Shown: positions 41,883-63,675 of the stretch, piece after piece
Layout: each line of letters begins with the position of its first letter
How positions within the stretch are numbered: the first letter of the stretch is position 1
The notes under the pieces: generated by a model
The model's input: only the letters and a program-made list of their open reading frames with translations
What the model was told of the DNA's origin: nothing
The model's database searches: none
Source of the DNA: Mycolicibacterium sp. ND9-15
GTDB taxonomy: Bacteria > Actinomycetota > Actinomycetes > Mycobacteriales > Mycobacteriaceae
Length of the DNA: 64,000 nucleotides
Direction: 5' to 3'
Assembly: GCF_035918395.1 (NCBI RefSeq)
Contig: NZ_CP142362.1
Location: 1,525,501 to 1,589,500, forward strand
Made by a program: the position numbers and the translations under genes

Positions 41883-41990
41883 GGCGCTCTTACCCTCACC
41901 GGTTGGTGCGGGTCGCGTCGTCATCCGAGCCACCCACGAGCGTGGGGTCGGCGTGCCGTCCAGTCGGAGCTTGGCGACGACATCTCATGA
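41883..41990 (-). ncRNA. candidate structured leader, copy A
   Basis: On the minus strand: P1 pairs GTCGTC (41976-41981) with GACGGC (41955-41960, one U-G). P2 is CCCACG-CT-CGTGGG (41933-41946), extendable through GCC/GGC. P3 is ACCCGCACC-AACC-GGTGAGGGT (41892-41913) with one mismatch. A promoter-like TTAGCAT lies about 10-20 bases upstream (42000-42006). The final AAGAGCGCC is shared by all four copies. Not a family I know; coding is an alternative. Confidence 0.5.
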
Positions 41991-42011
41991 CGCACTGCCA
42001 TGCTAACCCGG

Positions 42012-42030
42012 CGCTCCGACATGCGGAGCG
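42012..42030 (-). terminator. terminator hairpin after the NERD-helicase gene
   Basis: CGCTCCG-ACATG-CGGAGCG is a perfect 7-bp stem five bases beyond the helicase stop. It separates that gene from the promoter-like sequence of leader copy A. Confidence 0.55.
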
Positions 42031-42034
42031 GAAA

Positions 42035-43702
42035 TCAGCGGCCCTGGTCCGCGGGCACGTTGAGCCGTCGAGCCAAATCCGGTCCGCCCACCTCGCGAAT
42101 GAAGCCGGGATCGCCGCACACGACGAGTTGGTCGCGCGCGCGGGACAACCCGACGTAGAGACGTTCGCGGGAACGCTCGAACACATCGGTCTCATTGACC
42201 ACGAGAACCACAGCGCGCCGTTCGAGTCCCTTGAAGCCGAGTACGTGACCGTAGAACACCTGGTCGGCATCCCAGAACGTGTCCCAGTACGCCTTGTGGC
42301 CGTCCTTCTGCCGCTCGGCCTGTTCGGGATGGCGACTGCCGGTGGTCAGCAGTGCGACATCCTCTGGGCGCCAACCTTCTTCGAGCAGCGCCTCGATTTG
42401 GTCGTCACCGACGTCGAGTGCGTCCTCGCTACGGCAGGCGACGAACTCGACGGCGGGGCCCTCTCCGCCGAGGAATCTCATCGGGTGGTCGACGAGCGGT
42501 TGGAAGGCGTTGGCGATCTGGCGGGTGTTGCGCAGGTTGTGGTCGAGTATCAGCGGTACCAGCGGCACCGGGGGCGAGCCGTACCGGTTGAAGACCCGTT
42601 GCCCCTCGTCGGTGAACACGTACAGGCCACCCTCGTCGGGATCCTTCAGCGCGATCAGCAGCGGTTCCCACCACGAGTCGGCGAAGTCCTGCGCTTCGTC
42701 GACCACGATGGAGTCGAACCGCCGCCCGGATTCGAGTTGCGTTGCCAGCTCGGCCATTTGGAGCGGGAGATCGTGTTCCCAGAACTGGACGGTCTCCTCG
42801 GTGCGCAGTGCTTCATCGGGCCCCTCGGGTGCGCCCCACTGCACACCGAGCGCGTGGAACTCCCCGACGTAGCCGGGTTGCTGCCGTCGCGGCCAACTGG
42901 CGGTGATGCGCTCGAGGTAGGACGCCAGTCCGTGGGAGTAGCAGACCAGGGCGACACGCTGCCCCCGTTGAGCCAGGCGGCGGGCCTGCTCCATCGCGAG
43001 GAACGTCTTGCCGCTGCCGGCGCCGCCGCGGACCTCGATGCGGTTGAGCAGCCGGGTGGCGTCGAGGATGACGGCCTGGTGTTCGGTGAGCGCGTCGGCG
43101 GCGTCCTCGTTGGCCAAAGCTCGGGCGACGACGTCGCGTTGCGGCAGCCCCCGCCCGCTGAGCGCGGTGATGATCTGGTCGATGCCGTCCTTCGTGAGCA
43201 ACGGACGGTCGAGTTCCTGGCTGATTAGCACGTGGCGCAGCCTGCCGTCGATGTCTTTGAGATCGTTGCGGTCGATGACCTTCCAGCGCGGGCAGTCCGA
43301 GAGTGCGAAGTCGTCGGGCAGTTCGACGTTGGGCAGCACGACGACGTGGTCCCAGCGCAGCCGCCCCTGCGTCCAGCGGGGGTCGTTCTCGATGTAGTCG
43401 CGCAGGGCATAGCAGGCCTCGCGGGCCTGGCGGACGGGTTCGATGATGTGCTCGCGCCCGCCGCGCTTCTGGCGCCAGTTCTCGCCGTCGTGCCAGACCT
43501 CGCCGCCCTTGACCTCCAGGCACGCGATGCCGGCGCCTTCGATGGCGACGACGAAGTCAACCTCGTGGTCCTTGAGGTGGTCGGTGACGCGTTGGCCGGC
43601 GATGACGAGGTCGTTGGGCTGGAGCTGCTCGACGAGGTCTTGGTAGACGCGGCGCTCGGCGCGGTTGGCCAGTCGTGGGGTGTCGGTGGGTGTGACGGTC
43701 AT
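42035..43702 (-). CDS. NERD-domain nuclease fused to a UvrD-like helicase
   Basis: A 555-residue protein. The N-terminal ~130 residues form a NERD (nuclease-related) domain: HEVDFVVAIEGAGIACLEVK gives the PD-(D/E)xK-like core. The rest is an SF1 helicase: Walker A GGAGSGKTF, motif II VVDEAQDFADSWW, and a late motif LYVGLSRARDQLVV. Likely a DNA or RNA processing enzyme; related proteins occur in repair and in defence islands. I start at MTVTPTDTPRL, since upstream codons are not family-like. Its 3' end meets a hairpin and then leader copy A. Confidence 0.8.
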   Translation of the reverse strand: MTVTPTDTPRLANRAERRVYQDLVEQLQPNDLVIAGQRVTDHLKDHEVDFVVAIEGAGIACLEVKGGEVWHDGENWRQKRGGREHIIEPVRQAREACYALRDYIENDPRWTQGRLRWDHVVVLPNVELPDDFALSDCPRWKVIDRNDLKDIDGRLRHVLISQELDRPLLTKDGIDQIITALSGRGLPQRDVVARALANEDAADALTEHQAVILDATRLLNRIEVRGGAGSGKTFLAMEQARRLAQRGQRVALVCYSHGLASYLERITASWPRRQQPGYVGEFHALGVQWGAPEGPDEALRTEETVQFWEHDLPLQMAELATQLESGRRFDSIVVDEAQDFADSWWEPLLIALKDPDEGGLYVFTDEGQRVFNRYGSPPVPLVPLILDHNLRNTRQIANAFQPLVDHPMRFLGGEGPAVEFVACRSEDALDVGDDQIEALLEEGWRPEDVALLTTGSRHPEQAERQKDGHKAYWDTFWDADQVFYGHVLGFKGLERRAVVLVVNETDVFERSRERLYVGLSRARDQLVVCGDPGFIREVGGPDLARRLNVPADQGR

Positions 43703-44050
43703 CGGCGCGCCCGCATGTTGCTTCGACGCAACCACCGCATGTCGAACTCCTCCCCCTATGAGCGTTCTGTCGATGTTACGACGATCATTGATCGAGGCCG
43801 CCTGCGCGCAGCAGCGGTTCCGTCGATGCCATTGGCGGGCTGCCGTTACGTGTCCTGGGTCATTGATTCGTGGCCACTCTGCGCAGCCAATGTGGGCCGC
43901 TGGCTCCTAGAGCCGAGATTGCACACAGGGCTGTGGTCGCCGCGTCAACTGCAACAGCCCTGGCTGCAATCTCGTCACTAGGGATCAAGTCTGACTACCG
44001 ACAACCAGACACCGCATGCTTGTGGAGCCGTCGGCATCACTGTCGTGGAA
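43703..44050. other. 348-bp stretch without a supported gene
   Basis: No frame here looks like a protein family I know. A perfect 9-bp inverted repeat, CAGGGCTGT (43926-43934) and ACAGCCCTG (43954-43962), could form a hairpin with a 19-base loop. It may be the eroded 3' flank of the SWIM-type pseudogene. Confidence 0.5.
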
Positions 44051-44700
44051 TCAGAGCCCCTTCGCGTCCAGCGCCTTCATCAGCGAGGGTCGCCTGCCGA
44101 ACTCTTGGCGGATCTGCGCGATGAACGACGCGAAATCCCCGCTGCGACCGCCCCGCTCGTAGAGTTCGGCCATTGTCGCCAGCGTCGCGGCGATACCGGG
44201 ATAAAGCTTGGTGTTGGGCTGCCGTAATTCGTTCTCGAGCTGTGGCCGATACAGGTCAGCAGCCTCGACAGGCCGAGCTTCGGCACCGCGGACAGCCAAT
44301 TCGCGCCACGCCCAGCCTGGGCCGTACCGGTCGGCGGCTTGCCACGCGGCGTCGATATCACCGTCGTTCATATGGAGTTGCGCCAGGACCGCGCCGGCGG
44401 CGAAGCGGTCAGAGACCGCCAGCTGTCGCGCGTGGTCGAAGGCCCAGGTGCGCTCGCTACCGACACGGTGACGACCGCCGCGAAATCGCTTGGCACACAG
44501 TAGTTCTGGACCGACGGCTGCCGGACAAAGTTCGCACGCAGGACGGTGATCGCATCATCGATACGGCCCACTCCCCTATACATGTCGCGGCTACGTCGTC
44601 GGGGCTCAACCAATATGGGTTGCCACCACCGTGACTGGTAACCCGCCCGTCGGCCACCGCGCGATCTATGGTCACCGGCCACCTTGAGCAGGGTCGTTTC
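44051..44700 (-). pseudogene. degraded SWIM zinc-finger family gene
   Basis: The last 106 codons are open (WAWRELAVRGAEARPVEAAD, NTKLYPGIAATLATM, then FGRRPSLMKALDAKGL), a C-terminus I associate with actinobacterial SWIM zinc-finger proteins. Upstream the family sequence continues in other frames (ERTWAFDHARQLAVSDRFAA; then IDDAITVLRANFVRQPSVQN), so at least two frameshifts are needed. The SWIM motif itself and the N-terminal half are gone. The family assignment is from memory. Confidence 0.5.
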
Positions 44701-44752
44701 GGAGAGCGGTACAGCACTATGCTGCCCGACTCGGGGGCGAGACTCAGCGCAT

Positions 44753-45133
44753 TCAGGCCGCGACAACCTCCACGAGGCCCTCCAGGCCGACGAAGTCTGC
44801 GACGTTGCGAGTGTAGAGCCGCGCCGAATGAGCATGTGCGGTGGCCGCAATCAATAGGTCCATGGATCGCGCTCGGCGTCGGCGGCCGGCCTCGACGACT
44901 GCCGCGGCCAAACGTCCGTAGCTGGCGGCCACGGCGCCGTCGACCGGTACGGCATCGAACATCCGTTGAAGCAGCAGCAGGCGGCGCAGTCGTTCAGCGC
45001 GGATATTTTGTGCTTTCGCGACGAGGACGCCGAAATGTAGTTCAGCCAACGTGATAGCGCTGACGGCCAGGTCCCCCTCCAGCGGAGGAACGTCGGCGGC
45101 GATGACGACGCTGGTGTCCAGAAGCGCTCTCAC
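44753..45133 (-). CDS. vapC: PIN-domain toxin (VapC type)
   Basis: A 126-residue PIN ribonuclease. Acidic active-site residues are in ALLDTSVVIA (D6), LAELHFGVL, and SMDLLIAATAHAH, with TRNVADF near the end. VapC toxins cut tRNA or rRNA at specific sites with Mg2+. The GTG start overlaps the antitoxin stop (GTGA), so translation is coupled. The gene looks intact. Confidence 0.85.
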   Translation of the reverse strand: MRALLDTSVVIAADVPPLEGDLAVSAITLAELHFGVLVAKAQNIRAERLRRLLLLQRMFDAVPVDGAVAASYGRLAAAVVEAGRRRRARSMDLLIAATAHAHSARLYTRNVADFVGLEGLVEVVAA

Positions 45134-45378
45134 GCGTTCGCCCACGGGTCCCGGATATCGGCGGCCAGTTCCTCACGGTCGGCGCGCCACGCCGGGTCGC
45201 CGGGCCCGGCGAAGAGCTCGGCTACGTCATCCCATCGGCGCCAGGTCCGGGGAGCGGCGGGCACCAGCCGGGCGCCAGGCCTGCCGGCGACGGTGATGAC
45301 AATCTCCTCGCCCTCTTCTACACGACGGACGAGTTCAGATGCGTTCTGGCGCAGCTCGCGCAGACCGACGGCTTCCAC
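45130..45378 (-). CDS. vapB: Phd/VapB-type antitoxin
   Basis: An 82-residue antitoxin with the Phd/YefM-type N-terminus VEAVGLRELRQNASELVRRV and IVITVAGRPGARLVP, and a C-terminal toxin-binding tail (WDDVAELFAGPGD). I chose the GTG at 45378: upstream codons overlap a perfect operator palindrome, and a TACAGT -10 lies between. It forms an antitoxin-first operon with the PIN toxin. Confidence 0.8.
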   Translation of the reverse strand: MEAVGLRELRQNASELVRRVEEGEEIVITVAGRPGARLVPAAPRTWRRWDDVAELFAGPGDPAWRADREELAADIRDPWANA

Positions 45379-45388
45379 GTTCCAACTG

Positions 45389-45402
45389 TAGCACATGTGC
45401 TA
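45389..45402. promoter_or_regulatory. operator palindrome TAGCACATGTGCTA
   Basis: A perfect 14-bp palindrome 10 bases upstream of the antitoxin GTG. It abuts the likely -10 box on the minus strand, which fits autorepression by the VapBC complex. The TGCTA half-site also occurs in the operator of the module at 62.5 kb. Confidence 0.65.
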
Positions 45403-45421
45403 TCAGCCACACCTGGGCACT

Positions 45422-45472
45422 CGGATGTGATTGCCGTTGCGGGTAGTCTGCGGTTATTCGAGTTCGATGCGA
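45422..45472 (+). repeat. 50-bp dispersed box, copy 1
   Basis: CGATGTGAT..GCCGTTGCG..GTA.TCTGC..TTATTCGAGTTCGATGCGA is shared with 54040-54090 at about 85% by eye. Here it is followed only by a short open stretch ending DDRLFKRIEKQLRAAAKN-stop at 45575, which looks like the end of a lost gene. This region otherwise holds no gene. Confidence 0.5.
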
Positions 45473-45571
45473 CCGAAGACCGGCGTTGTCGAGCCCGGCG
45501 GGCGCCGACGACTTCAGCGATGATCGGCTGTTCAAGCGAATCGAGAAGCAACTGCGAGCAGCGGCGAAGAA

Positions 45572-47359
45572 TTAGCGTCCGGGCGGGAGTTCCCGCGGAC
45601 CGCGATGCCCGCTCAGCTCACGCGATCCACGCTTGGTGAGTTCGGCGCGGCCCTCGCCCCGTGTCATTGACTGCGATGCGTGTTCGGCCCCGGCGTCGAG
45701 CCGGCCGTGGCCGTACTCGCGATCGTCGGTCCTGACGGCCGACGCCTTCCGCGGGCCCGACCCACCGGTCGCATCCACAACCGGTTCTCCCGCAACGCCT
45801 TCCACGTCAGTACTCACCTTGCGGGTGCGGCGCATCGAGAAGTGAATCTCCTCGGTCTCCTCGACGACTTGCCGCGCACCGCGCAGCGGCCTGGTGGTGG
45901 TGTCGATCGCGTTGACGATGATCGGCGGCACCAGAGGGCGCAGCCAGCGCGCGGCGGCCCGGGTGACATCGGGAATGGCCGTGATCAACGGACGTCCGGC
46001 CTCACCGGCCTGCTCCACCGAACGGTCGTCAGCCCGCGCGGGCAGGTTCTCTGATGCGGTCACGTGGACATCCTCCTCACCGACGGATGCGTCGGTCGTT
46101 TCGGCCACCGGCAACTCGGCCGTCGAGAAGCTCGCCGCTTCGGCCTCGGCGGCGATCGGCAGGTACACGTGGTCCACGCCGGGTTCGGATATGCGCTCCG
46201 CGCGTGTGTGCACCGCCGGCTCGATCGCCTCGATCACGCGACGGCGCTGCTTCTCGCGATCGATCTGGAGTTGCGCCTCGACGGCCATGCGAGCACTGGC
46301 CAGCTGCTGCTCGGCCCACATGTTGTCGATGGCTGCGCGCACCTCGGCCCGCTTCACCGCGATCGCCGTGTCGGCCCGCAAGTCCGCTCGATCCCGCTCG
46401 ACGTCGGCGGCGATCCCGCGGTCCTGGGACGTCTCGCCCCGCCACAGCCGAAGGATCAGCGGCAGCAAGCTCAGCAGGACGAAGAACCCGTCGACGAGCA
46501 GCCGCAGGACCAGCGCACCCGGATTGGCCAGCGTGTGGTCGTTCATGGCGACCCACCGAGCGCCCAGCCCGCGGTCCGGGTCGGCCGTCGCCGCCTGCCG
46601 GGCCTGAGCCAGCGCCTGCTCGCGGTCGGCGATCTGAGCACCAAGCTCGGGCGCGCGGCCGTCCCGTTCTGCCAACGCGGCGTCGAGCGCGCCCTGGGCA
46701 TCGGCAAGGAACTCGTTCGCCGTCCGGTTTTCCGGCCCGGCGCCGGGCACACCGGTGATCAAGGTCTGCGGGCAGTCCGGGCTGGGGTTGAACTCGCAGC
46801 GGGCCACCACCAGGGCTTCCTGGCGGCGTTGCACGGCCTGCTCCACCGCCTCGTCGAGCCCCCGGCGCGCCGTGCGGCTGCGGTCGAGGTCGGCGGTGGC
46901 CTGCGCTACCGCCGGGGTCGCCTCGGCGGTGCGTGCCGCCCGCTCGTCGAGCAGCGGGTCGATCGATCCGGAGAACACGACGACGGCGGCCAGTTCGCCG
47001 ATCATGAGCCCGACGGCGAGCGCGACGGCCGCACGTCCCGCGATGGCGAGGCCGCCACGAATCGCGCCGGAGGCGATCGCACGGCTCAGCGCGCCGACCA
47101 GCAGCCCGACGCCGGAGGTCACCGCGACGACGGCCGCCAACGGCCAGGACGTCGACCCGGCCAGGGCCGGTGCCAGTGCCAGGGCCGCCACCAGCCACGC
47201 CAGCGCCGCCGCGACCAGCACCACCACTCCGGCGCTGACCAGGGTGGACCGCTCATGGCGGGCACCACGGTCACGCCGCTCGCCACCACCGAGCCAGATG
47301 AGCGCGGCCGCAACCGGCGAGGCGGCAGGATCGTGCTCAGAAACTTTGTGGGCGGACAT
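45572..47359 (-). CDS. DUF4407-like membrane protein
   Basis: A 595-residue protein. Two pairs of membrane helices lie in the first ~150 residues (VSAGVVVLVAAALAWLVAAL first). A helical extracytoplasmic stretch follows, with a cysteine pair near CEFNPSPDCPQ. A further helix (LVDGFFVLLSLLPLILRLW) leads to a long charged, coiled cytoplasmic tail. This arrangement matches DUF4407. The ATG at 47359 has GGAG five bases upstream and is preferred over one five codons earlier. The tail is low-complexity. Function unknown. Confidence 0.7.
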   Translation of the reverse strand: MSAHKVSEHDPAASPVAAALIWLGGGERRDRGARHERSTLVSAGVVVLVAAALAWLVAALALAPALAGSTSWPLAAVVAVTSGVGLLVGALSRAIASGAIRGGLAIAGRAAVALAVGLMIGELAAVVVFSGSIDPLLDERAARTAEATPAVAQATADLDRSRTARRGLDEAVEQAVQRRQEALVVARCEFNPSPDCPQTLITGVPGAGPENRTANEFLADAQGALDAALAERDGRAPELGAQIADREQALAQARQAATADPDRGLGARWVAMNDHTLANPGALVLRLLVDGFFVLLSLLPLILRLWRGETSQDRGIAADVERDRADLRADTAIAVKRAEVRAAIDNMWAEQQLASARMAVEAQLQIDREKQRRRVIEAIEPAVHTRAERISEPGVDHVYLPIAAEAEAASFSTAELPVAETTDASVGEEDVHVTASENLPARADDRSVEQAGEAGRPLITAIPDVTRAAARWLRPLVPPIIVNAIDTTTRPLRGARQVVEETEEIHFSMRRTRKVSTDVEGVAGEPVVDATGGSGPRKASAVRTDDREYGHGRLDAGAEHASQSMTRGEGRAELTKRGSRELSGHRGPRELPPGR

Positions 47360-47525
47360 GGAGACTCCAAACATCTTCCGGCTGTTCCAGGCGTGACAGG
47401 CGCCGACCGACGACCCTGTCGGTGGTGTGGGCCAGGCGGAACCCCCGCGGATCGCACCATCACGCCGATGCGAATGCCTTGAATCTTCTCACAGGCTACC
47501 GGCGCCTACGCTTTCCAGGCGACTC

Positions 47526-49241: not shown

Positions 49242-49356
49242 GCCAACCTCCACGCTCTGGGTGATTCTCGTTGGTTCAACGATGGACCTCACCGCTGCGG
49301 AAGTCTCGATAACCGGGTATGAAAGCTGGCGAGTTCGGGATGCGCCGTCGTCGCGC

Positions 49357-49767
49357 TCAACAAGACAATTCGCTGCCGGGGCTCTGCGCTGGAAGGCTCG
49401 CGGCCACAGCAGCGCTGAGCAGACGCTGGTCGTAGCATACGAACGCAGTGAGTCTAGGACCGAAAACGGCAGTGGCAGTGGCTAAATGAACTGCGTCGAG
49501 AGTTCGCAGATCGGGATCGGGGAACGCTGCGGTGGCCGCACGGACCACATCGTCGATGTCGTAGCGTGCGATGCGAGCGACCACCGCAGGCACATTGGCC
49601 AGCAATGCGCTGTCGGTGCGGCGAAGTGCGCGCGGGAGTTCGATCTCCAAGAGCGTCGAGGATACCCACGGTGTCGCCTGTCGTTCGTCGAGCCAGTCGG
49701 CAAGGGAGTCGGTTTCGGGTTCGCGCCGAATCAGCTTCACCACAGCCGACGTGTCCAGATAGAGCAT
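49357..49767 (-). CDS. vapC: PIN-domain toxin (VapC type)
   Basis: A 136-residue PIN-domain ribonuclease with LYLDTSAVVKLI (D5), LEIELPRALRR, TLDAVHLATA and the final VCYDQRL, the four acidic sites of VapC. It directly abuts the antitoxin stop, with no spacer between TAG and ATG. Intact. Confidence 0.85.
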   Translation of the reverse strand: MLYLDTSAVVKLIRREPETDSLADWLDERQATPWVSSTLLEIELPRALRRTDSALLANVPAVVARIARYDIDDVVRAATAAFPDPDLRTLDAVHLATATAVFGPRLTAFVCYDQRLLSAAVAASLPAQSPGSELSC

Positions 49768-50040: not shown

Positions 50041-50049
50041 AGTCAGAGG

Positions 50050-54676: not shown

Positions 54677-54719
54677 GGTCCGCTGACGGGGGGCCGCGCG
54701 GTTATGGACGGGGTTGGCG

Positions 54720-55946: not shown

Positions 55947-57566
55947 ATGACCGACATTGCATTGACGGCTTCGCCGAGCGCCGACCCGTCGCCACCTGGC
56001 CGTATCTCCGCAGAGGCGGGCCGCCGCAGGACCTTTGCCGTCATCAGCCATCCCGACGCCGGTAAATCGACGTTGACCGAGGCGCTGGCGTTGCACGCCC
56101 GGGCCATCACCGAGGCCGGCGCGGTTCACGGCAAAGCGGGCCGGCGGGCGACGGTGTCGGACTGGATGGAGATGGAGAAGGCGAGAGGCATCTCGATCAC
56201 CTCGACGGTGCTGCAGTTCCCGTACCGCACGTGCGTCATCAACCTGCTCGACACCCCCGGTCACGCCGACTTCTCCGAAGACACCTACCGGGTGCTGACG
56301 GCCGTCGATTCCGCGGTAATGCTCATCGACGCCGCCAAAGGCCTTGAGCCCCAGACGCTGAAACTTTTTCAGGTGTGCAAGCACCGTCGGATCCCGATCA
56401 TCACGGTGGTCAACAAGTGGGACCGCCCGGGCCGCCACGCGCTGGAACTGATGGACGAGATCAAGGCGCGAATCGGCTTGCGCCCCACGCCGTTGACGTG
56501 GCCCGTCGGCATCGCCGGCGATTTCAAGGGGGTGCTCGACCGGCGGACGGGGAACTTCATCCGGTTCACCCGCACCGCTGGCGGCGCCACCGCAGCCCCC
56601 GAGGAGTACATCGCGGCGTCCGACGCGCACGACGCTGCCGGCGCCGACTGGGATACCGCCGTCGAAGAATCTGAGTTGCTGTCCGCGGACGGCGCTGATT
56701 ACGACCGCGAGCAGTTCCTCAGCGGCGACGCCTCGCCGGTGCTGTTCACCTCGGCGGCATTGAACTTCGGCGTGAACCAGCTCCTCGATGTGCTCGTCGA
56801 CCTCGCGCCGGCGCCAAGCGGAGCCCTCGACGTCGACGGGACTCGCCGTGCCGTCGAATCACCCTTCAGCGCTATGGTTTTCAAGGTGCAGGCCGGGATG
56901 GACTCCGCGCATCGTGATCGGATCGCCTACGCGCGGGTGGTCTCGGGCACGTTCGAGCGCGGCGAGGTTCTCACCCACGCCTCGACCGGCAAGCCGTTCG
57001 TCACCAAGTACGCGCAGTCGGTGTTCGGCCAGCAGCGCGCCACGTTGGATACCGCTTGGCCGGGTGATGTCATCGGGCTGGCCAACGCCGCGGCGCTGCG
57101 CCCGGGTGACACGTTGTATCGCGTTTTGCCTGTGCAGTTTCCGCCGATACCGAGCTTCTCTCCCGAGCATTTCGCGGTGGCGCGCGGCACTGATCCCAGC
57201 AAGCACAAGCAGTTTCGGCGCGGGATCGAGCAGCTCGAACAGGAAGGCGTGGTGCAGGTGCTGCGTTCAGACCGGCGCGGCGACCAGGCGCCGGTTCTCG
57301 CCGCGGTCGGGCCGATGCAGTTCGAGGTGGCGGTGCACCGGATGGCCGCCGAGTTCAGCACGCCGATTGCGTTGGAGTCGCTGCCATATCAGGTGGCGCG
57401 CGTCGTCGACCCGGCCGACGCGGAGTTCATGGACAAGCAGGTGTCAGCGGAGGTGTTGACGCGCAGCGACGGAGTCATGCTCGTGCTGTTCTCCACCCCG
57501 TGGCGGCTGGAGGGCTTCCAACGGGACAATCCCGACGTCAAGCTCGGCTCGCTGGTGGCGGCGTAG
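55947..57566 (+). CDS. prfC: peptide chain release factor 3
   Basis: A 539-residue GTPase. G1 is ISHPDAGKSTLTEA, switch region ARGISITSTVLQF, G3 LLDTPGHADFSEDTY, G4 VVNKWDRPGR; beta-barrel and C-terminal domains follow. RF3 releases RF1/RF2 from ribosomes after termination. The start is the ATG at MTDIALTASPS; an upstream in-frame ATG is less likely. A second, diverged copy of its last ~60 codons lies at 60223-60404. In other bacteria prfC is a known target for integrative elements (SXT/R391, at its 5' end). Confidence 0.93.
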   Translation: MTDIALTASPSADPSPPGRISAEAGRRRTFAVISHPDAGKSTLTEALALHARAITEAGAVHGKAGRRATVSDWMEMEKARGISITSTVLQFPYRTCVINLLDTPGHADFSEDTYRVLTAVDSAVMLIDAAKGLEPQTLKLFQVCKHRRIPIITVVNKWDRPGRHALELMDEIKARIGLRPTPLTWPVGIAGDFKGVLDRRTGNFIRFTRTAGGATAAPEEYIAASDAHDAAGADWDTAVEESELLSADGADYDREQFLSGDASPVLFTSAALNFGVNQLLDVLVDLAPAPSGALDVDGTRRAVESPFSAMVFKVQAGMDSAHRDRIAYARVVSGTFERGEVLTHASTGKPFVTKYAQSVFGQQRATLDTAWPGDVIGLANAAALRPGDTLYRVLPVQFPPIPSFSPEHFAVARGTDPSKHKQFRRGIEQLEQEGVVQVLRSDRRGDQAPVLAAVGPMQFEVAVHRMAAEFSTPIALESLPYQVARVVDPADAEFMDKQVSAEVLTRSDGVMLVLFSTPWRLEGFQRDNPDVKLGSLVAA

Positions 57567-57729
57567 GGGTAGGTCGGGAAGGCCTCGACACCGCCCGTTC
57601 TGGATAGCTTTCAGCGGGCCCCGGAAGCGTCGAGATCGTCGCGAGCGCGCTGCGCGACGGAAGTTGTGCGCTCGGCGAGTAGCCGTCGCCAAGAGGCTCA
57701 CACGCAGGCGGCCTGGTTGGCGGTTCGGT

Positions 57730-57746
57730 TGATATCGTCGATATCA
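57730..57746. promoter_or_regulatory. operator palindrome TGATATCGTCGATATCA
   Basis: A perfect inverted repeat, TGATATC-GTC-GATATCA, ten bases before the antitoxin ATG. It overlaps the likely -10 and the approach to the ribosome-binding site (AGGAGG). It fits binding of a ribbon-helix-helix VapB. Confidence 0.65.
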
Positions 57747-57756
57747 GGAGGTCAGA

Positions 57757-57978
57757 ATGCCCGATGTGCTGATTCGAGGGTTATCAGAGGCCGCGGTCAC
57801 CCGCATCGACGAGGAGGCTGCATCGCTTGGGTTGTCGCGCAACGAGTACTTGCGGCGCAGGTTCGAATCCGAACGATCGAGGACCGAGGGGAAGCTTACT
57901 GTCGCGGATTTGCGTAGGGCGGCTGACGTGGCGCAGGACCTTGACGATGCACAGGTCATGGCGTCCGCGTGGCGGTGA
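57757..57978 (+). CDS. vapB: ribbon-helix-helix antitoxin (VapB/FitA type)
   Basis: A 73-residue antitoxin with the FitA-like start [20 protein letters not shown] and [14 protein letters not shown], and a tail ([20 protein letters not shown]) that should block the toxin. It has AGGAGG before the ATG and a palindromic operator. Its stop overlaps the toxin start (GTGA). The toxin gene next door is frameshifted, so this antitoxin is now effectively orphan. Confidence 0.8.
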
Positions 57979-58369
57979 CGTCATGGCTGATCGACAGGTC
58001 GGCATACACCCGACTCGGGGCCACCGTCGACGCGGCACAGTGGGTGATCGAATCGAACGCGGCCTGGTTTGGATCAGCACCATCACCCGATTAGAAATCG
58101 GCTTTTCGTTTCGGAGCGCCGAGGATGCACGCGAAGAGTCCGCGTCTCCACCAATCTCCCTGATGCCGTTGGAATACCTAACCCCCGCGGCCGAGGATCG
58201 CGCGGTTGAGGTCCAACTTCTTCTCGCTGACCGCGGCAAGCACCGCGCGCCGTCCATTCCCGACCTGTTGGTGGCAGAAATCGCCAACCTCACAGTGTTG
58301 GCCCCAGACAAGGACTTCGAGCTGATCGCCGAGATCACAGGGCAGCCTATCGAACGACCGCGTCTCTGA
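57975..58369 (+). pseudogene. vapC: frameshifted PIN-domain toxin (VapC)
   Basis: The GTG frame gives [16 protein letters not shown], the normal VapC opening with the first aspartate. Around 58045 the frame is lost. The rest ([54 protein letters not shown]) continues in another frame to its natural end. One frameshift of about one base explains it. Apart from this the gene is well preserved, so the loss looks recent. Confidence 0.8.
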
Positions 58370-58510
58370 TATCGGGTGTGACGCACTTCGCGGCGCTGCG
58401 GTCAGCTTGGTGAGACTGCCTGTCGGGCAATGACGTCGGCGCAGTGGTGTCGTTCCTGGGTCGAGCTCGAAGCCGAAATCGGGTCTCGCGACAGGTACTC
58501 TACCCACGAC

Positions 58511-59053
58511 CTAGTTCGGTTTATGACGTGGGAAGAGCCGTCTGCCACTCGAATACCGATCGGCGATGCGCAACGGCACGATCGGGATGCGACGTGGGAT
58601 GGGCGGGGTTACCACCGGATCCGGGCTGGGTGTCCAACGTGCGGTTGGCTTCAATCGGTCCTCCCCGCCGCGAAATTGCCCATTGGACTCCTCATGACGA
58701 CGTGCGATATCGACCGCATATTGGAATACGTGGTCCAGGTTGTAATAGGTTCCGGCGTATAGCCAATGGCACCCAAGGCACGCCGAGAGTGCATCGTTCA
58801 GAACAACACCGGGATGTCGGCACGGCCAGGTGGCCGGATCGCTGCCGTGGATCGCCTCGTATTCACGGCGACGTAATTGACGGCATTCCCATCGCATCTC
58901 GGCACTCTTCATCCACTTCGGCACCACCTTCCAGGCGGTCATGATGTGGACTGTGCCAGGCGGATGCAAAGTATCGTAGTACGGGCCCCAGGTGGTCGCC
59001 GCAGAAGACGGCGGGCGCGCCAACGGGACCGAACCGTGACCTCTTTCGTTCAT
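58511..59053 (-). CDS. hypothetical protein of the leader-linked gene group
   Basis: A 180-residue frame (from ATG; an internal ATG at MTAWKVVPKWMKSAEMRWEC is possible). It has cysteines in WPCRHPG and ACLGCHW and ends PLRIADRYSSGRRLF, like the end of the 195-residue gene upstream (PLRIADRYADGRR). No family is recognised. It is third in a minus-strand row downstream of leader copy B and may be co-transcribed. The shared C-terminal motif supports a real coding region. Confidence 0.5.
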   Translation of the reverse strand: MNERGHGSVPLARPPSSAATTWGPYYDTLHPPGTVHIMTAWKVVPKWMKSAEMRWECRQLRRREYEAIHGSDPATWPCRHPGVVLNDALSACLGCHWLYAGTYYNLDHVFQYAVDIARRHEESNGQFRGGEDRLKPTARWTPSPDPVVTPPIPRRIPIVPLRIADRYSSGRRLFPRHKPN

Positions 59054-59105
59054 GAGTCATCCCGTGACGTAGCTGGTTCCGACACCGGTATCCATCGACG
59101 CCTCT

Positions 59106-59354
59106 TTAGGCCCGCACTCGAGAATGTTGCGATTGGACTCGACGCCTCAAAGACAACCCACGGTATCCTTTGGCTTTTCCGATGCGCGGCGACACATCTT
59201 CTGGCGCTCGAGGCCCTGGAGGGTCATGGGCGTTCATAAGGTCGAAGCCCGCGCTGTCGGCCCGCAACTTGTCAAGATGCTCGTCATCGGTTGTCGCAGG
59301 CCGACACCCAGGCTCGGCGCCCGCAGCCCGCAACTTCTCCATGTCCAACCTCAT
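59106..59354 (-). CDS. small protein coupled to the 195-residue gene
   Basis: An 82-residue frame whose ATG overlaps the stop of the upstream gene (ATGA), a classic coupling arrangement. The sequence is polar (RLDMEKLRAAGAEP, then DDEHLDKLRADSAGFDLM) and not known to me. The coupling is the main evidence that it is translated. Confidence 0.45.
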   Translation of the reverse strand: MRLDMEKLRAAGAEPGCRPATTDDEHLDKLRADSAGFDLMNAHDPPGPRAPEDVSPRIGKAKGYRGLSLRRRVQSQHSRVRA

Positions 59355-59938
59355 GGCTTGCCATCTCCTGTCTGCCGCTCATCGCCACTTCCGGTAAGGC
59401 CCTTCCGTCGTCTCCCGTCCGCATATCGATCGGCGATTCGCAACGGCGGGATGTGGCTGTAGTCGATATTGCGTAGCTCTGCGTTGCGGATCTCCTGCTC
59501 GGCCCAAACCTTCTGGTTGGCGGCCTCATAGCCCAATTTGACTCCACGTGCAGCGACGTCATCGGGATGACTTGACCCCCAGACGCGGCACTCCAGCCAC
59601 TTGTCCGGCGTCGCCAAACTGAAAACGCTGCGGGCACCGCCGAAGAAGGCTTCCTCGGGGACCATCAAGAGGGACCACCGTGGTTTCCACGCTGCCCTGC
59701 CGCCGAACCCGCGCAGCGCCTCCCGCAACACGGCTGGGCGATGATGCCGCCGGACCAGGCTCAGGTCGTCACCCTCGATGTGGACCAACCCATCATCGTC
59801 GACCTCTGCGGTGACGGGGATGACGGCGCACGGATTCCGCATGGAGACGTTGAACTGAACCCAATGGATGAGATGGCCAGGCGCATAGGCGCCGCACGCG
59901 TCATCGATAGGGGAAAGATCCCAGGCATACCCGGACAT
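59351..59938 (-). CDS. leader-linked hypothetical protein (MSGYAWDLSPIDD family)
   Basis: A 195-residue protein: MSGYAWDLSPIDDACGAYAP, VIPVTAEVDDDGLVHIEGDD, PDKWLECRVWGSSHPDDV, and IPPLRIADRYADGRR. I recognise no family. GGAG lies five bases before the ATG. Leader copy B sits about 34 bases upstream of the start. A deleted copy lies at 63403-63534 and a short remnant at 41741-41863, each behind its own copy of the leader. It heads a probable three-gene unit. Confidence 0.65.
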   Translation of the reverse strand: MSGYAWDLSPIDDACGAYAPGHLIHWVQFNVSMRNPCAVIPVTAEVDDDGLVHIEGDDLSLVRRHHRPAVLREALRGFGGRAAWKPRWSLLMVPEEAFFGGARSVFSLATPDKWLECRVWGSSHPDDVAARGVKLGYEAANQKVWAEQEIRNAELRNIDYSHIPPLRIADRYADGRRRKGLTGSGDERQTGDGKP

Positions 59939-59971
59939 GGAGACTCCCGAACGTCGGGCCTCCGGATGGGA

Positions 59972-60075
59972 GGCGCTCTTGCCGGCACCGGTCGGTGTCA
60001 GCCGCTTCGTCATCCGAGCCACCCACGAGCGTGGGGTTGGCGTGTCGTCCAGTCGGAGCTTGGCGACGACATCTC
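59972..60075 (-). ncRNA. candidate structured leader, copy B
   Basis: On the minus strand: P1 is GTCGTC (60065-60070) with GACGAC (60044-60049), perfect. P2 is CCCACG-CT-CGTGGG (60022-60035). P3 is GCTGACACC-GACC-GGTGCCGGC (59981-60002), with one mismatch. The promoter-like region TATATTGG lies about 20 bases upstream. It ends 34 bases before the ATG of the 195-residue gene. Confidence 0.5.
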
Positions 60076-60222
60076 GTGAAGCTGTGTCCAATATACCGCG
60101 GCCTACCGACACATCCCAGCATCGGTTCGGCCGAAAATGTGCCGGCCCTTTTGGCGACTGTCAGCGATCAGGCAGCACTCCCGGCAACGGCGTCACACAA
60201 GCTTTCGACTTCCGCGGTCGCC

Positions 60223-60404
60223 GCCGTATCAGGTCGCCCGGATCGTCGACCCGCCGACGTCGAGTTCATGGACAAGCAGGTGTCGGCCGAGGTGCTGCCC
60301 CGCAGCGACGGAGTCATACTGGTGCTGTTCTACACCCCGTGGCCGCTGGGGGGCTTCCAACGCGACAATCCGACATCGAGCTCGGGTCGTTCGTGGCCGC
60401 CTAA
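60223..60404 (+). pseudogene. second, diverged copy of the prfC 3' end
   Basis: From YQVARIVDP through VEFMDKQVSAEVLPRSDGVI and GGFQRDNP to a final GCCTAA, the sequence follows the last ~60 codons of prfC. It has many substitutions and two one-base deletions. It is in the same orientation as prfC, 2.7 kb downstream of its end. The divergence shows it is not a fresh duplication. Confidence 0.8.
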
Positions 60405-60424
60405 GCCGGTATCGCATTCCTTCT

Positions 60425-61051
60425 TCACTCCTCGCGCTGCTTTGGCGAAGCGCCGCCGACCAAGTATCCCGTCGTCGGCGTCGGGCTGAATGGGTCTATC
60501 CAACTCCGAAGACTCGCTAACTCGCGCGCAGACACGATCGCAGCAATCGAGCCACTTCTTGTTCCGGCGAAGGCACGGTCACCGGCCTCTCGCGCTGCCA
60601 CCTCGATGGCGTCACCCTCGACATCGATGTCAGCCGACCTCCTCGCGTGTAGGACCGCTTCCCTGACGGGGTCGCCACCATCACCGCTCATGAACCCGCC
60701 TTTAGCCAAGACTGCCACGGCGCTGGCGGGGCCGCTGCCACTGAGACGCAGTTCGCTCGGGTCGTCGAGTTTCGCATAGTCGCGAAGCATGCGCAGCGTA
60801 TGCGCGGCAACCTCATTCGGTTCCTTCCGCGGGACTTCGACGGCGGCGCCTTCCTCGTCACTCCACGAATGCGCACCGATACTGAGCCATAGCCGACCTG
60901 CCGCATCGCACCGAAACTCGACGAGCGGAGGGGCCACGGCAGATTTCCGCGAGATAGTGAAGACGTCGCGAGGATGCAGCATCCCCGCGACATACGCGGC
61001 GACGAAGGTCTTGAAAGACCGCCACTGGGCGTCTGATTCGAACTCAGTCAC
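60425..61051 (-). CDS. leader-linked hypothetical protein, possibly chaperone-like
   Basis: A 208-residue protein: VTEFESDAQWRSFKTFVAAY, VEFRCDAAGRLWLSIGAHSW, EVAAHTLRMLRDYAKLDDPS. The N-terminal part faintly recalls the YbjN/TY-Chap peptide-binding fold, but I am not sure. GGAGAG lies five bases before the GTG. Leader copy C ends about 36 bases upstream. It is unrelated in sequence to the MSGYAWDLSPIDD family, so the leader is not tied to one protein only. Confidence 0.6.
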   Translation of the reverse strand: MTEFESDAQWRSFKTFVAAYVAGMLHPRDVFTISRKSAVAPPLVEFRCDAAGRLWLSIGAHSWSDEEGAAVEVPRKEPNEVAAHTLRMLRDYAKLDDPSELRLSGSGPASAVAVLAKGGFMSGDGGDPVREAVLHARRSADIDVEGDAIEVAAREAGDRAFAGTRSGSIAAIVSARELASLRSWIDPFSPTPTTGYLVGGASPKQREE

Positions 61052-61086
61052 GGGACTCTCCGATGAATCGGGCCCCTGCTTACAGA

Positions 61087-61196
61087 GGCGCTCTTGCCAG
61101 CACCGTTCGGCACTCGGCCGCGTCGTCATCCGAGCCACCCACGAGCATGGGGTTGGCGTGCCGTCAAGTCGGAGCTTGGCGACGGCATCTCATGAC
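61087..61196 (-). ncRNA. candidate structured leader, copy C
   Basis: On the minus strand: P1 is GCCGTC (61181-61186) with GACGGC (61160-61165), perfect although both arms differ from copy B. P2 is CCCATG-CT-CGTGGG (61138-61151) with a U-G pair. P3 is GCC-G-AGTGCC-GAAC-GGTGCT-GGC (61096-61118) with one bulge and two G-U pairs. A promoter-like TTAGCGT lies upstream. This is the most diverged copy and gives the best test of pairing. Confidence 0.5.
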
Positions 61197-61271
61197 GCTT
61201 TTCGCACGCTAACACGTACTACCGACACTCGGCGGTGATTACGGGTAAGGGGCATACGCCCTCGGTCGCGC

Positions 61272-61988
61272 GTGAGTTACCGTGGCCACGTGTTCGGTGC
61301 AGGCCCGCGACCCGACTTGCGTCGGCGACCGCGAGCCGAGTTGGCGATCTTCTGCGTCCGGGTCGACCTCGATGATGCCCGGCCGTCCATCTGGCGTCGG
61401 CTCGACCTGCGTTCCGAAGTGACGTTGGACGTCCTGCATCAAGTTCTGCAGGCGGCCTTCAGCTGGGACGACTACCACCTTCACCGATTCTCGTTGGGCG
61501 GCAGACCGTTCGATCGCGACAGCCAAGTGTTCCTGTGTCCATACGACGCAGACAATCCCGAATTCGAAGACGGCGACGGTCCGGAGGCCTCGCAGGTGCG
61601 CCTGGACCAGACATTGCACGACCTCGGGGACAAACTGCACTACCTCTACGACTACGGCGACAACTGGGAGCTGACACTACATCTCGAGCAGGTGATGACG
61701 GCACTCGACGGCTACCCCACGGCGGTCCTGGTGGATGGCCGCCGTGCGGATCAGCCCGGCGGCATGCGCGCTGGCGCGGGCCGCGTTGCGACGCCACACC
61801 TGAGCGGGCCGTGGCCTCAGACATGGACTATCGCGAGACCCGCAACACCTTCCAGGACATCGAAGTCCCCATCCTGCGTCACTACCGGCAGCTGCTTGGC
61901 GGCTGCGATTGCAGCGATCCACAGGTCGTTGATGCGCACCCGCCGCCCCGCCTCGGCCAAGTGGACGCGTAGCAACGCCGAGAGTTGA
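61272..61988 (+). CDS. pRiA4b ORF-3-like protein with damaged C-terminus
   Basis: Residues about 25-160 match the plasmid pRiA4b ORF-3 family: FCVRVDLDDARPSIWRRLDL, LHQVLQAAFSWDDYHLHRF, and LGDKLHYLYDYGDNWELTLH. After VDGRRADQPGG the family similarity stops, and the frame runs on antisense to the vapC gene. The end is therefore probably a frameshift or deletion product. Two GTG codons (61272, 61290) could be the start. The role of the family is unknown. Confidence 0.65.
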   Translation: MSYRGHVFGAGPRPDLRRRPRAELAIFCVRVDLDDARPSIWRRLDLRSEVTLDVLHQVLQAAFSWDDYHLHRFSLGGRPFDRDSQVFLCPYDADNPEFEDGDGPEASQVRLDQTLHDLGDKLHYLYDYGDNWELTLHLEQVMTALDGYPTAVLVDGRRADQPGGMRAGAGRVATPHLSGPWPQTWTIARPATPSRTSKSPSCVTTGSCLAAAIAAIHRSLMRTRRPASAKWTRSNAES

Positions 61989-62227
61989 GCCGCATCTTCG
62001 TCGACCGGTAACGCGGTCATATCTGCGACTGCATCCAACGTACGAAGGCGACGCGCCCGGACCTCGGAGTTCCGCGCCGCGAGCACACCTGCATTCAGTT
62101 CGGCGAGGGTCACCACCGTCGTGGCTAGCTCCTCCGGAATCAGCGACATCTCCAGTTGGCGCCCGTTCTCGTTGGCGATGAAGACCGAGGTGTCGAGGAT
62201 GCCGGCCGCGGGCCGATCGGTGGTCAC
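61817..62227 (-). CDS. vapC: PIN-domain toxin (VapC type)
   Basis: A 136-residue PIN ribonuclease with GILDTSVFIANE, LAELNAGVLAA, RINDLWIAAIAAAK and TQDGDFDVLEG, all four acidic sites intact. The GTG start overlaps the antitoxin stop. Its 3' half is antisense to the tail of the pRiA4b-like frame. Confidence 0.88.
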   Translation of the reverse strand: MTTDRPAAGILDTSVFIANENGRQLEMSLIPEELATTVVTLAELNAGVLAARNSEVRARRLRTLDAVADMTALPVDEDAAQLSALLRVHLAEAGRRVRINDLWIAAIAAAKQLPVVTQDGDFDVLEGVAGLAIVHV

Positions 62228-62481
62228 AACTCGTCGAGGTCGTCGGTGGTTTCACCGACGAGCTCCGCGAGGTCATCACGCAGACCGGGGTCCGCCTGGC
62301 TGGTCTGGAGCCGCTTGACCAATTCCGCGCTCGACACCCACCGCCGACGTTTCGGCTCGACAGCGGAGATCACCGCGACGGCTCGTCCATTTACCGTGAT
62401 CGTCACCTCTTCGCCTGCTTGGACCCGACGGAGTACGCCGGCCGTGTCGTTTCGCAGTTCGCGGGACGCCACCCTAGACAT
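62224..62481 (-). CDS. vapB: Phd/VapB-type antitoxin
   Basis: An 85-residue antitoxin: MSRVASRELRNDTAGVLRRV and VTITVNGRAVAVISAVEPKR, then a toxin-binding tail (DPGLRDDLAELVGETTDD). I chose the ATG at 62481, since the palindrome TGCTACGAGCGTAGCA overlaps it and longer starts would run through the operator. Same antitoxin-first layout as the two modules at 45 and 50 kb. Confidence 0.82.
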   Translation of the reverse strand: MSRVASRELRNDTAGVLRRVQAGEEVTITVNGRAVAVISAVEPKRRRWVSSAELVKRLQTSQADPGLRDDLAELVGETTDDLDEL

Positions 62482-62496
62482 GCTACGAGCGTAGCA
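62481..62496. promoter_or_regulatory. operator palindrome TGCTACGAGCGTAGCA
   Basis: A perfect inverted repeat (TGCTACG-AG-CGTAGCA) covering the antitoxin start, with a further TGCTACA half-site upstream on the minus strand. Occupancy by VapBC would block both promoter and ribosome access. The TGCTA core is shared with the operator at 45389-45402. Confidence 0.65.
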
Positions 62497-62556
62497 TTTA
62501 TGTAGCACATCAAGATCCAGACTGTGGCGGAGGCGCCGACAGGTAATCCATAGTGG

Positions 62557-63282
62557 TCATGCGGCTGTTTCCCAGTCGTAACGGCCGTCGAGCAGCGCCG
62601 TCACGCTTCTCGACTGCCACGCCCGGCCGTCAGAAGTGCGTTGACCCGACGAATTCAGCACACGCGCGGTCGCTGCGCGAGTCACGCCGCACCCATCGAC
62701 CAGCCAAGACACATAGCCGATGACGGCCTTGCGGCGCTCGGCCCACGGCAGCCCCGCCTGGGGAAGCGTTGGTGGCCAATCATTTTCATGCGGGGCCACC
62801 GGCACAGTAGTTGCGGCCTGCTCGACCACCCGCTCGAGACTTTCCACCCCGGCAGAGGCCAGCGCCGCGCGATCGAGAGCATCGACGACCTGCACCTCGC
62901 GCCGCAACGCGTGGTCGATTTCGCTTATGCCGCCCGTGTCTGGGACGGCCCAGAAATCCCGACCCACCAGCAGGTGGAGTCCGTGCCGTTGCAGTACCAG
63001 GCTCAGCCGACGGTAGTGCTGCTCGCGTCCGAGATCCGCCAGGGGATCGGGCATCCATATTGGCAAGCGGGTCGAGACCGCCCGCGCCACCGCTGCGACG
63101 ACCGCTTCAACCTCGGCTAAGTCATCGTGCGAGGCGGGCTCGCCGGCCGGGAACGCGAACATCGCGGCGATGGTGGCCGAACGCGGTTCGCCGTGGGCGG
63201 TCGATCGTTCACAGCGGCGGACGGTTTCGTCGTCGCCGAGCACGAGAACCGCTGTGGCGGTCGTGTTGTCGGGTCGAATCAT
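62557..63282 (-). CDS. hypothetical protein with recombinase-like C-terminal helix-turn-helix
   Basis: A 241-residue protein. The C-terminal ~50 residues (GVTRAATARVLNSSGQRTSD, then WQSRSVTALLDGRYDW) resemble the recombinase-domain helix-turn-helix of serine recombinases, but no resolvase catalytic domain is present. The first ~100 residues (VLVLGDDETVRRCERSTAHG) are unassigned. AGGAGC lies six bases before the ATG. It is the only intact gene behind leader copy D, 120 bases after the pseudogene there. Confidence 0.55.
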   Translation of the reverse strand: MIRPDNTTATAVLVLGDDETVRRCERSTAHGEPRSATIAAMFAFPAGEPASHDDLAEVEAVVAAVARAVSTRLPIWMPDPLADLGREQHYRRLSLVLQRHGLHLLVGRDFWAVPDTGGISEIDHALRREVQVVDALDRAALASAGVESLERVVEQAATTVPVAPHENDWPPTLPQAGLPWAERRKAVIGYVSWLVDGCGVTRAATARVLNSSGQRTSDGRAWQSRSVTALLDGRYDWETAA

Positions 63283-63402
63283 GGTCAGCTCCTCTCGGCA
63301 GGCGAGACGCCGGGCCTCGCTGATACGCCGGCATGTTTGCAGTTGATTCGACGGTATCGGGAGCTGCCGACAATTCTGCTCGTCGGCTGCGCAGTCGCGG
63401 CG

Positions 63403-63534
63403 ACGTCATCGGGATGACTAGACCCCCAGATGCGGCACTCCAGCCACTTGTCCGGCGTCGCAGATGAGATGACCAGGTGCGTACGCCGCGCACTCGTCGT
63501 CGATCGGGGAAAGATCCCAGGCATAGCCGGACAT
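63403..63534 (-). pseudogene. internally deleted copy of the 195-residue leader-linked gene
   Basis: It opens MSGYAWDLSPIDDECAAYAP, as in the gene at 59351-59938. After GHL about 260 bases of the parent are missing, and it resumes out of frame at TPDKWLECRIWGSSHPDDV. Start region and ribosome-binding site are intact, so a short 37-residue product is possible but unlikely to work. Confidence 0.75.
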
Positions 63535-63567
63535 GGAGACTCCCGAACGTCGGGCCTCCGGACGGGA

Positions 63568-63675
63568 GGCGCTCTTGCCGACACCGGTTGGTGTCAGCCG
63601 CTTCGTCATCCGAGCCACCCACGACCGTGGGGTTGGCGTGTCGTCCAGTCGAAGTTTGGCGACGACATCTCGTGA
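63568..63675 (-). ncRNA. candidate structured leader, copy D
   Basis: On the minus strand: P1 is GTCGTC (63661-63666) with GACGAC (63640-63645). P2 is CCCACG-GT-CGTGGG (63618-63631), with a changed loop. P3 is GCTGACACC-AACC-GGTGTCGGC (63577-63598), nine pairs including one U-G, and lacks the mismatch of copy B. It belongs to the same duplication as copy B, so the two are not independent. Confidence 0.5.

Follow-up and report, generated by a model that had tools for sequence, protein, structure and literature searches.

SAM-IV riboswitch aptamers probably head DNA-damage transcripts in mycobacteria and would gate accessory genes

In a 64,000-nucleotide (nt) stretch of the genome of Mycolicibacterium sp. 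ND9-15 (contig NZ_CP142362.1, positions 1,525,501 to 1,589,500; hereafter, the window), four copies of one structured element, which we call A to D, are full-length aptamers of the S-adenosylmethionine-IV (SAM-IV) riboswitch. We consider it probable that such aptamers head transcripts started from PafBC-type DNA-damage promoters, and that SAM would gate the translation of the accessory genes placed behind them. In this way, the bacterium would likely put genes of unknown role, predicted to be damage-induced, under the control of SAM. This reading is built on computed features: the elements belong to the family and their pairs covary; wherever the promoter motif occurs, it keeps a fixed position; start codons follow at a narrow range of distances, and T-runs are rare.

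The SAM-IV aptamers and their pairing

Four minus-strand stretches of the window match the Rfam model RF00634 over its full length. They score 69.4 (A), 79.2 (B), 76.2 (C), and 69.9 (D) bits, with E-values of 3.1e-10 to 1.9e-12 for the whole window. Since the gathering score of the family is 38, these matches lie far beyond chance. A sequence-only reading had already described four minus-strand copies, each between a promoter-like sequence and a gene or its remnant, but had named neither the RNA family nor the type of promoter. Its positions agree with the Rfam matches to within 6 nt, and a PafBC-type promoter match indeed lies before A, B, and C and, in a decayed form, before D. The three hairpins that it drew are real as well, but its P1, P2, and P3 are the P2a, P3, and P5 of the family, and the true P1 and the two pseudoknots, PK-1 and PK-2, had been overlooked. 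A new RNA family was rejected, as the elements match SAM-IV.

The true P1 pairs CUUC with GAAG in B and D, and CGUC with GACG in A and C, so that both sides have changed. PK-1 joins UCCGA to UCGGA, and PK-2 joins GCUC of the P3 loop to GAGC of the 3' tail. Among the window copies, only B and D share longer flanks: between 59867-60176 and 63463-63770 the identity is 92.9% over 310 columns, and over a further 65 base pairs (bp) it is 95.4%. They form a segmental duplication, and their agreement is thus not independent evidence. In the whole genome (5.1 Mb, one contig), the Rfam model finds six SAM-IV matches. One of them, L001 (106 bits), precedes an enzyme of the pyridoxal phosphate-dependent Cys/Met-metabolism family (Pfam), which reading of the locus suggests to be of the MetZ/MetY type. 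The other five, at 69.4-79.2 bits, are accessory copies, i.e., the four of the window and copy E (L004), which lies outside it and precedes an ADP-ribosylglycohydrolase gene (PF03747, E 2.6e-44). A seventh, weak match of 37.7 bits to the model of the window's type, at G000:C1:2472372-2472464 of the same genome, is possibly a degraded copy.

A SAM-IV match was found in at least 195 of the 198 genomes of the genus, and those with more than one (at least 65) were searched again for copies. The resulting set of 85 loci consists of 79 listed places, nearly all of them weaker matches, and the six of this genome. We split the accessory types by the first bases of P1 and by alignments: 51 loci are of type IIa, which is the type of the window, 27 are of type IIb, and 7 are others. 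For the survey of genes, 43 new copies from named loci brought type IIa to 94 copies.

The IIa alignment holds 47 of the 51 aptamers (46 distinct rows), four decayed or duplicate rows being excluded. In it, 97.0% of the cells pair, against 94.2% in shuffles, and 14 pairs have changed on both sides, against 7.1 ± 1.5; when the structure is slid by 1-3 columns, pairing falls to 33-44%. All seven helices (P1, P2a, P2b, P3, P5, PK-1, and PK-2) are paired in 91-100% of the cells over the 46 distinct rows, and the P1 pair 2-78 has matching sides in 87 of 88 parsed copies (94 in total). The IIb alignment (27 sequences) behaves in the same manner, with 98.4% of the cells paired and 6 pairs changed on both sides, against 1.2 in shuffles. 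By reading, PK-1 pairs UCCGA with UCGGA in IIa and CCUGG with CCAGG in IIb, where the Rfam consensus has CCCGG and CCGGG, so that the types differ at several pairs simultaneously. Because related sequences are counted separately, these covariation counts speak for the structure but should not be read as probabilities. The earlier proposal of a selected RNA structure is thus borne out by covariation in both types: compensatory changes are present in the larger alignment, where their lack would have spoken against it.

A PafBC-type motif upstream of the aptamers

The LexA-RecA-independent damage promoters have the consensus tTGTCRgtg-8 nt-TannnT in the available part of one source (PMC5656591), and PafBC acts at such promoters via a -26 element, according to the accessible portion of another (PMC11804915). 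Upstream of the IIa aptamers, 93 regions could be read; in 84 of them TANNNT begins 13 or 14 nt ahead of the aptamer, and in 86 within -25 to -11, whereas shuffles reach 10.3 (at most 20). Once aligned on TANNNT, these regions share tGTCgGt, about eight bases, and then TANNNT. We counted GTCRGNN-N8-TANNNT within 60 nt upstream of the aptamer. This motif is present at 57 of 93 IIa copies (0.09 in shuffles) and at 21 of 27 IIb copies (0.01), always at -27 to -30. At met-type SAM-IV copies of the genus it is found in 3 of 31 cases (0.03), and in Micrococcaceae in 0 of 31 (0.03). Fisher tests against the met type give 2.9e-7 for IIa and 1.2e-7 for IIb, the 31 met-type controls being the best-scoring listed matches of the genus plus L001, and not a random sample. 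Counted per genome or locus, the motif is kept in 21 of 37 genomes and 23 of 38 named loci for IIa, and in 20 of 26 genomes for IIb. The five loci above 90 bits in our own set (three of a second SAM-IV type, G163, and L001) have no motif. This second type, seen in some mycobacteria (L104, L105, and L106; 95-111 bits), starts with GGTCATGAGAACCA; no PafBC-type promoter match was found at these three loci, and their downstream gene looks, by reading, like an aminotransferase class V or cysteine desulfurase gene.

The pattern TGTCRG-N10-TANNNT occurs six times in the window, where 0.10 matches would be expected: before A, B, and C, at the start of the gene that we call F4, at recC, and at a second ADP-ribosylglycohydrolase gene that has no riboswitch. 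A, B, and C match all three -10 positions, and D keeps 7 of 9 upstream and 2 of 3 -10 positions. The genes recC, recB, and recD are consecutive (2639-10883, NCBIfam), and the -10 of the recC match has its end 9 nt upstream of the probable recC start codon (2669). The second ADP-ribosylglycohydrolase gene (21851-23372) stands directly after its PafBC-type match, has a DSPc-type C terminus, and belongs to the same Pfam family as the riboswitch-borne gene of copy E.

The strict consensus occurs at 5 sites in this genome and its reversed pattern at 0; the relaxed consensus occurs at 53, against 14 when reversed. The five strict sites precede uvrA, an SbcD-like gene, a YneA-like gene, and two DUF222 genes; uvrA is called by NCBIfam and cut by the locus end, and the SbcD-like and YneA-like calls are below curated cut-offs. 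As far as the available part of the source goes, uvrA is PafBC-dependent (PMC10693628). Because the strict sites precede uvrA and repair-type genes, we take the motif to be valid in this genome. Two adjacent WYL-domain genes of 338-341 amino acids are also present and, judging from their size and adjacency, are likely pafB and pafC. We infer from the motif that PafBC acts at the promoters of the aptamers.

Several observations weigh against a damage promoter. Homologous copies do not count as independent cases; the strict motif is missing in 36 of the 93 IIa and 6 of the 27 IIb copies; the commonest IIa gene family has it in only 10 of 23 cases and the family G020/G021/G181 in 0 of 3. Moreover, two of the three met-type matches are also at -28, and the upstream consensus is incomplete in A, B, and C (7 of 9 positions). 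TANNNT by itself is a general -10 element. This last point, the IIa copies without the strict motif, and the met-type copies with it speak for ordinary SAM-IV riboswitches on ordinary SigA promoters, for which GTCRG would be coincidental or the site of another regulator and damage would have no role. We hold this explanation unlikely, given the excess of the motif over shuffles at one narrow position and in two aptamer types, its rarity at met-type copies of the same genus, and the fact that its strict form stands before uvrA and further repair-type genes of this genome.

Ligand pocket and gating of translation

The cryo-EM structure of a SAM-IV riboswitch places residues 2-4, 7-8, 63-65, and 77 around SAM, in the part of the source available (PMC6890682). 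In the 47 IIa sequences, U3, G7, A8, U63, G64, and A77 are invariant and C4 is nearly so; the pair 2-78 is U-A in 41 of 46 rows, G-C in 4, and U-G in 1. The family consensus has G40-C65, and IIb keeps it in 27 of 27 sequences; IIa has C40-G65, a flip seen in all 88 parsed copies of the 94. This flipped pocket pair counts against our main reading.

The flip is not confined to mycobacteria. In Micrococcaceae, at least 98 of 120 genomes match the IIa model, many of them weakly and perhaps through other types, and C40-G65 is present in all 22 parsed loci out of 31, the other nine being judged by eye. One of these aptamers (L248) precedes a Cys/Met-metabolism enzyme of the pyridoxal phosphate-dependent family, and another (L190, its C40-G65 read by eye) an NlpA-type lipoprotein; L177 precedes a family 5 solute-binding protein and L231 a luciferase-like monooxygenase (all by Pfam). 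We take the NlpA-type lipoprotein family to be that of the methionine-binding protein MetQ. Further Micrococcaceae SAM-IV copies (L235, L237, L242, L243, L245-L247, L249, and L254-L257) stand before proteins of about 90-120 amino acids with the pattern VLP..D...G.V.F, which start about 10-30 nt 3' of the aptamer.

A variant aptamer for another ligand, e.g., S-adenosylhomocysteine or another adenosine compound, would explain the odd targets, and it draws on the flip, on the mostly U-A pair 2-78, and on target genes that have no evident tie to methionine. We find it decidedly unlikely: the remaining pocket residues are kept, and IIb aptamers, which have the same kind of promoter, retain the consensus pair. 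Since the flipped pair also stands before a Cys/Met-metabolism enzyme and an NlpA-type lipoprotein, SAM is favored, and the evidence points to SAM as the ligand of the flipped variant and thereby, presumably, of the window-type aptamers.

On the 3' side, the start codon lies 29-36 nt from the aptamer in 74 of 94 IIa copies, a distance that was not rewarded in choosing it. In 63 of 76 copies (16.7 in shuffles), a stem of at least 6 pairs begins within 5 nt on the 3' side of the PK-2 strand, and in 65 of 76 (12.3) a stem of at least 5 pairs starts at the very first base after this strand. Stems of at least 4 pairs are present in 73 of 76 copies, but shuffles already reach 61.6, and we therefore rely on the stricter counts. 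The stem of this platform occurs in compensated forms, i.e., GCCUCC/GGAGGC, GCCCCG/CGGGGC, and GCCUUC/GAAGGC. TTTT precedes the start codon in just 3 of 91 copies and is absent in 88, so that an intrinsic terminator with a T-run was rejected as the nature of the platform. The stem near PK-2, the narrow start-codon distance, and the rare T-run together favor a control of translation.

Folding from the PK-2 strand onward gave a mean Shine-Dalgarno accessibility of 0.40 with the strand free and 0.40 with the strand blocked (76 copies). This simple folding model reproduced no switch, which counts against the proposed gating; the direction is hence borrowed from other SAM riboswitches. In those described before, binding turns translation down, and by analogy SAM binding would do so here. 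As we propose it, single-stranded DNA would activate PafBC, and RNA polymerase would initiate within a base or two of P1. With plentiful SAM, the aptamer would fold around it, and the P1/PK-2 fold and the adjoining hairpin would decide on the access of the ribosome to the Shine-Dalgarno sequence, which lies some 10 nt upstream of the start codon. We put forward more tentatively, as a wider reading, that mycobacteria may have a SAM-gated branch of the DNA-damage response, in which damage would give transcription and a given SAM state, most simply shortage, would give translation, i.e., a two-input gate with two aptamer types and about ten accessory gene families. If true, damage together with SAM shortage would mark an emergency, such as phage attack or self-restriction on methylation failure.

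Accessory units, their spread, and their relatives

The four units of the window, all on the minus strand, are not in the same state. In unit B, a PafBC-type promoter match found by pattern search (TGTCGGTA-N8-TATATT, 60090..60111) is followed by the intact aptamer (59970..60081), by the platform hairpin GCCUCC/GGAGGC directly 3' of the PK-2 strand (59958..59974), and by gene F1 (59351..59938, 195 amino acids), the ATG of which, at 59938, lies 31 nt 3' of the aptamer. Unit C has a promoter match found in the same way (TGTCGGTA-N8-TAGCGT, 61206..61227), an intact aptamer (61085..61197), and gene F2 (60425..61051, 208 amino acids, TY-Chap3-like), with a GTG start 33 nt 3' of the aptamer. Promoter match, aptamer, platform, and gene are all present in both units, which look functional and intact. 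In unit A, the promoter match (TGTCGGAG-N8-TAGCAT, 42000..42021, pattern search) precedes an aptamer (41881..41992) in which a core adenosine, A in the other 46 of the 47 aligned IIa copies, is replaced by G. The end of this aptamer is fused to a remnant of an F1-family gene (41741..41881) that has neither start codon nor platform; in blastp, with X at stops, its frame matches F1 proteins at best with 50-58% identity over 45-54 residues, and gene F1 of unit B with 44%. In unit D, the promoter (63684..63705, TGTCGGTA-N8-TATTCA) has decayed by loss of the last -10 base, the P3 loop of the aptamer (63566..63677) reads GGUC, which breaks one PK-2 pair, and the F1 pseudogene (63397..63534) is the B copy minus 252 bp, its frame ending after 38 amino acids. 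A and D look like relics of the arrangement of B and C.

Downstream of D, another PafBC-type match (63351..63372, minus strand, pattern search) precedes gene F4 (62557..63282, minus strand, 241 amino acids), with no riboswitch between them. The protein has a weak recombinase-type C terminus (Pfam HTH_62, E 0.061) and is 50% identical over 256 columns to the G060 member of a riboswitch-borne F4 family (10 copies), whose members in other mycobacteria stand directly under IIa riboswitches. Between unit C and F4, a Phd/YefM antitoxin and PIN toxin gene pair occupies 61817-62481. An 82-column stretch at 57377-57458 is 85% similar to 60217-60297, upstream of unit B and outside the riboswitch. Farther away, 17029-17073 matches the mycobacterial small RNA Ms_AS-5 in Rfam (71 bits).

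No methionine or sulphur gene follows the aptamers in the window: A, B, and D lead to F1 or its remnants and C to a TY-Chap-like gene. Such a context is usual for SAM-IV and does not define it. F1 has no match in Pfam, PADLOC, PHROGs, or NCBIfam, and 122 database proteins, its own copy included, resemble it at E <= 0.001; a protein scan of named genomes with F1 gave 200 stretches that matched a pattern, none of them confirmed. F2 matches PF22552 (TY-Chap3) below the cut-off, with 24.6 of 27 bits, and this domain is precomputed on most of the best 120 of the 185 database proteins found for it. The predicted folds have a mean predicted local distance difference test score (pLDDT) of 78.8 and a predicted template modelling score (pTM) of 0.57 for F1, and of 81.7 and 0.82 for F2. 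Neither fold has a match in the PDB at E < 0.001, so that fold comparison yielded no function. The longest frame at unit B (59351-60112) and a 253-amino acid database protein of matching length (P0001) run through the riboswitch, whose identity explains such gene calls; the likely F1 start is the ATG at 59938.

A scan of 394 genomes of the class gave IIa scores above 100 bits for seven of the genus, counting the present one, and for a single one of Micrococcaceae (G477, 101.4). IIb scores above 127 are found in the genus only (5 genomes), the next best being 70.6. An exact 23-mer of the IIa core retrieved 63 stretches in named genomes, of which 62 are mycobacterial (hosts include M. kyorinense, M. 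celatum, M. asiaticum, Mycolicibacter, and Mycolicibacillus) and one belongs to a Pseudonocardiales metagenome assembly. The first frames after the 94 IIa copies comprise 23 F1, 12 ADP-ribosylglycohydrolases, 10 F4, 7 F2, and 5 ankyrin-repeat proteins; the rest are 17 singletons, of which many have very short frames, and six groups with 2-4 members each. We ran Pfam on one representative each of 10 of the 11 multi-member groups: the ADP-ribosylglycohydrolase, ankyrin, and metallophosphatase groups score above cut-off, and the G060 member of F4 (Recombinase, E 0.0073) and F2 (TY-Chap3) below it. Of the IIb copies, 20 of 27 have one Cys-rich family of about 200 amino acids within 700 nt downstream. 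Gene grouping and Pfam gave no evident methionine link for the genes behind either type. PADLOC found no match for 7 proteins, and PHROGs, run on 8, assigned the L138 protein to phrog_3091 (unknown function, E 1.8e-8) and two others weakly. At two loci (L048 and L040), IIa and IIb riboswitches form divergent pairs, 116 and 67 bp apart, pointing outward from a common spacer.

Could all these be decaying copies of a mobile or duplicated cassette, with no present function? Units A and D are defective, D and B go back to a duplication, many singletons elsewhere have only very short frames, and SAM-IV RNAs were counted, with no further discussion, in 16 Mycolicibacterium prophages, in the accessible part of that source (PMC8190616). 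We regard this explanation as highly unlikely, because compensatory changes are seen in both types and the upstream flanks are unrelated while motif and aptamer persist. Indeed, the pairwise identity outside the motif (-60 to -33, 93 copies) is 0.27, against 0.26 in shuffles, so that motif and aptamer have been retained and not carried along; a mobile cassette with shared flanks was rejected on this ground. Furthermore, IMG/VR has no exact core match for three patterns, and blastn found no match to aptamer B in phage records. A plasmid search gave one partial match only, on an Arthrobacter megaplasmid without annotation.

The sequence-only reading had also warned that the repeat might be coding. 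The data show no coding signature: the lengths of 93 IIa aptamers fall into all three modulo-3 classes (61, 17, and 15), 68 of 93 have one or more open frames, against 79.9 in shuffles, and in-frame reading from the aptamer into the gene is open in just 25 of 93. A protein-coding repeat, similar at the codon level, for which speak one frame that spans much of A, B, and D and the protein P0001 (99% identical), which is longer than F1 and fits the frame through riboswitch B, is hardly conceivable and was rejected, as neither an open frame nor length modulo 3 is conserved and the copies have the Rfam match and the pseudoknot pairing.

The known role of SAM riboswitches is to switch methionine and sulphur genes, in the part of the source available (PMC6890682), and the M. 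avium SAM-IV precedes MAV_4315, an O-acetylhomoserine sulfhydrylase, in the accessible part of another (PMC3774663). A search of the literature on PafBC, DNA damage, and SAM-IV riboswitches, which covered few subscription papers, returned no SAM-IV RNA under a damage promoter. With SAM-IV as described (RF00634; PMC6890682, available part), our aptamers share P1, P2a, P2b, P3, P5, PK-1, PK-2, and most of the SAM pocket; the IIa copies differ by C40-G65, by often having PafBC-type promoters, and by preceding genes of unassigned role instead of methionine genes. The canonical mycobacterial copy L001 is of the same family and the same genome and differs from the window copies by its higher score, its other P1 and platform, and the lack of a PafBC-type match. 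The Micrococcaceae aptamers with C40-G65 share the flipped pair, a P1 starting with CUUC, and the CAAGAGC tail, but they have no PafBC-type match, and some precede metabolism or transport genes. The upstream elements have the same core as the LexA-RecA-independent promoters, so far as the available parts of the sources describe these (PMC5656591, PMC11804915), and differ from known PafBC promoters in that they run straight into a riboswitch. The RNA class is thus known, and the pocket variant and the damage-promoter wiring appear to be new. F1, F2, F4, the Cys-rich family of IIb, and the ADP-ribosylglycohydrolases would be likely members of the PafBC response, and SAM-IV RNAs of two types, heading apparent damage transcripts of many gene families, would tie methyl-donor supply to genome stress on each mRNA.

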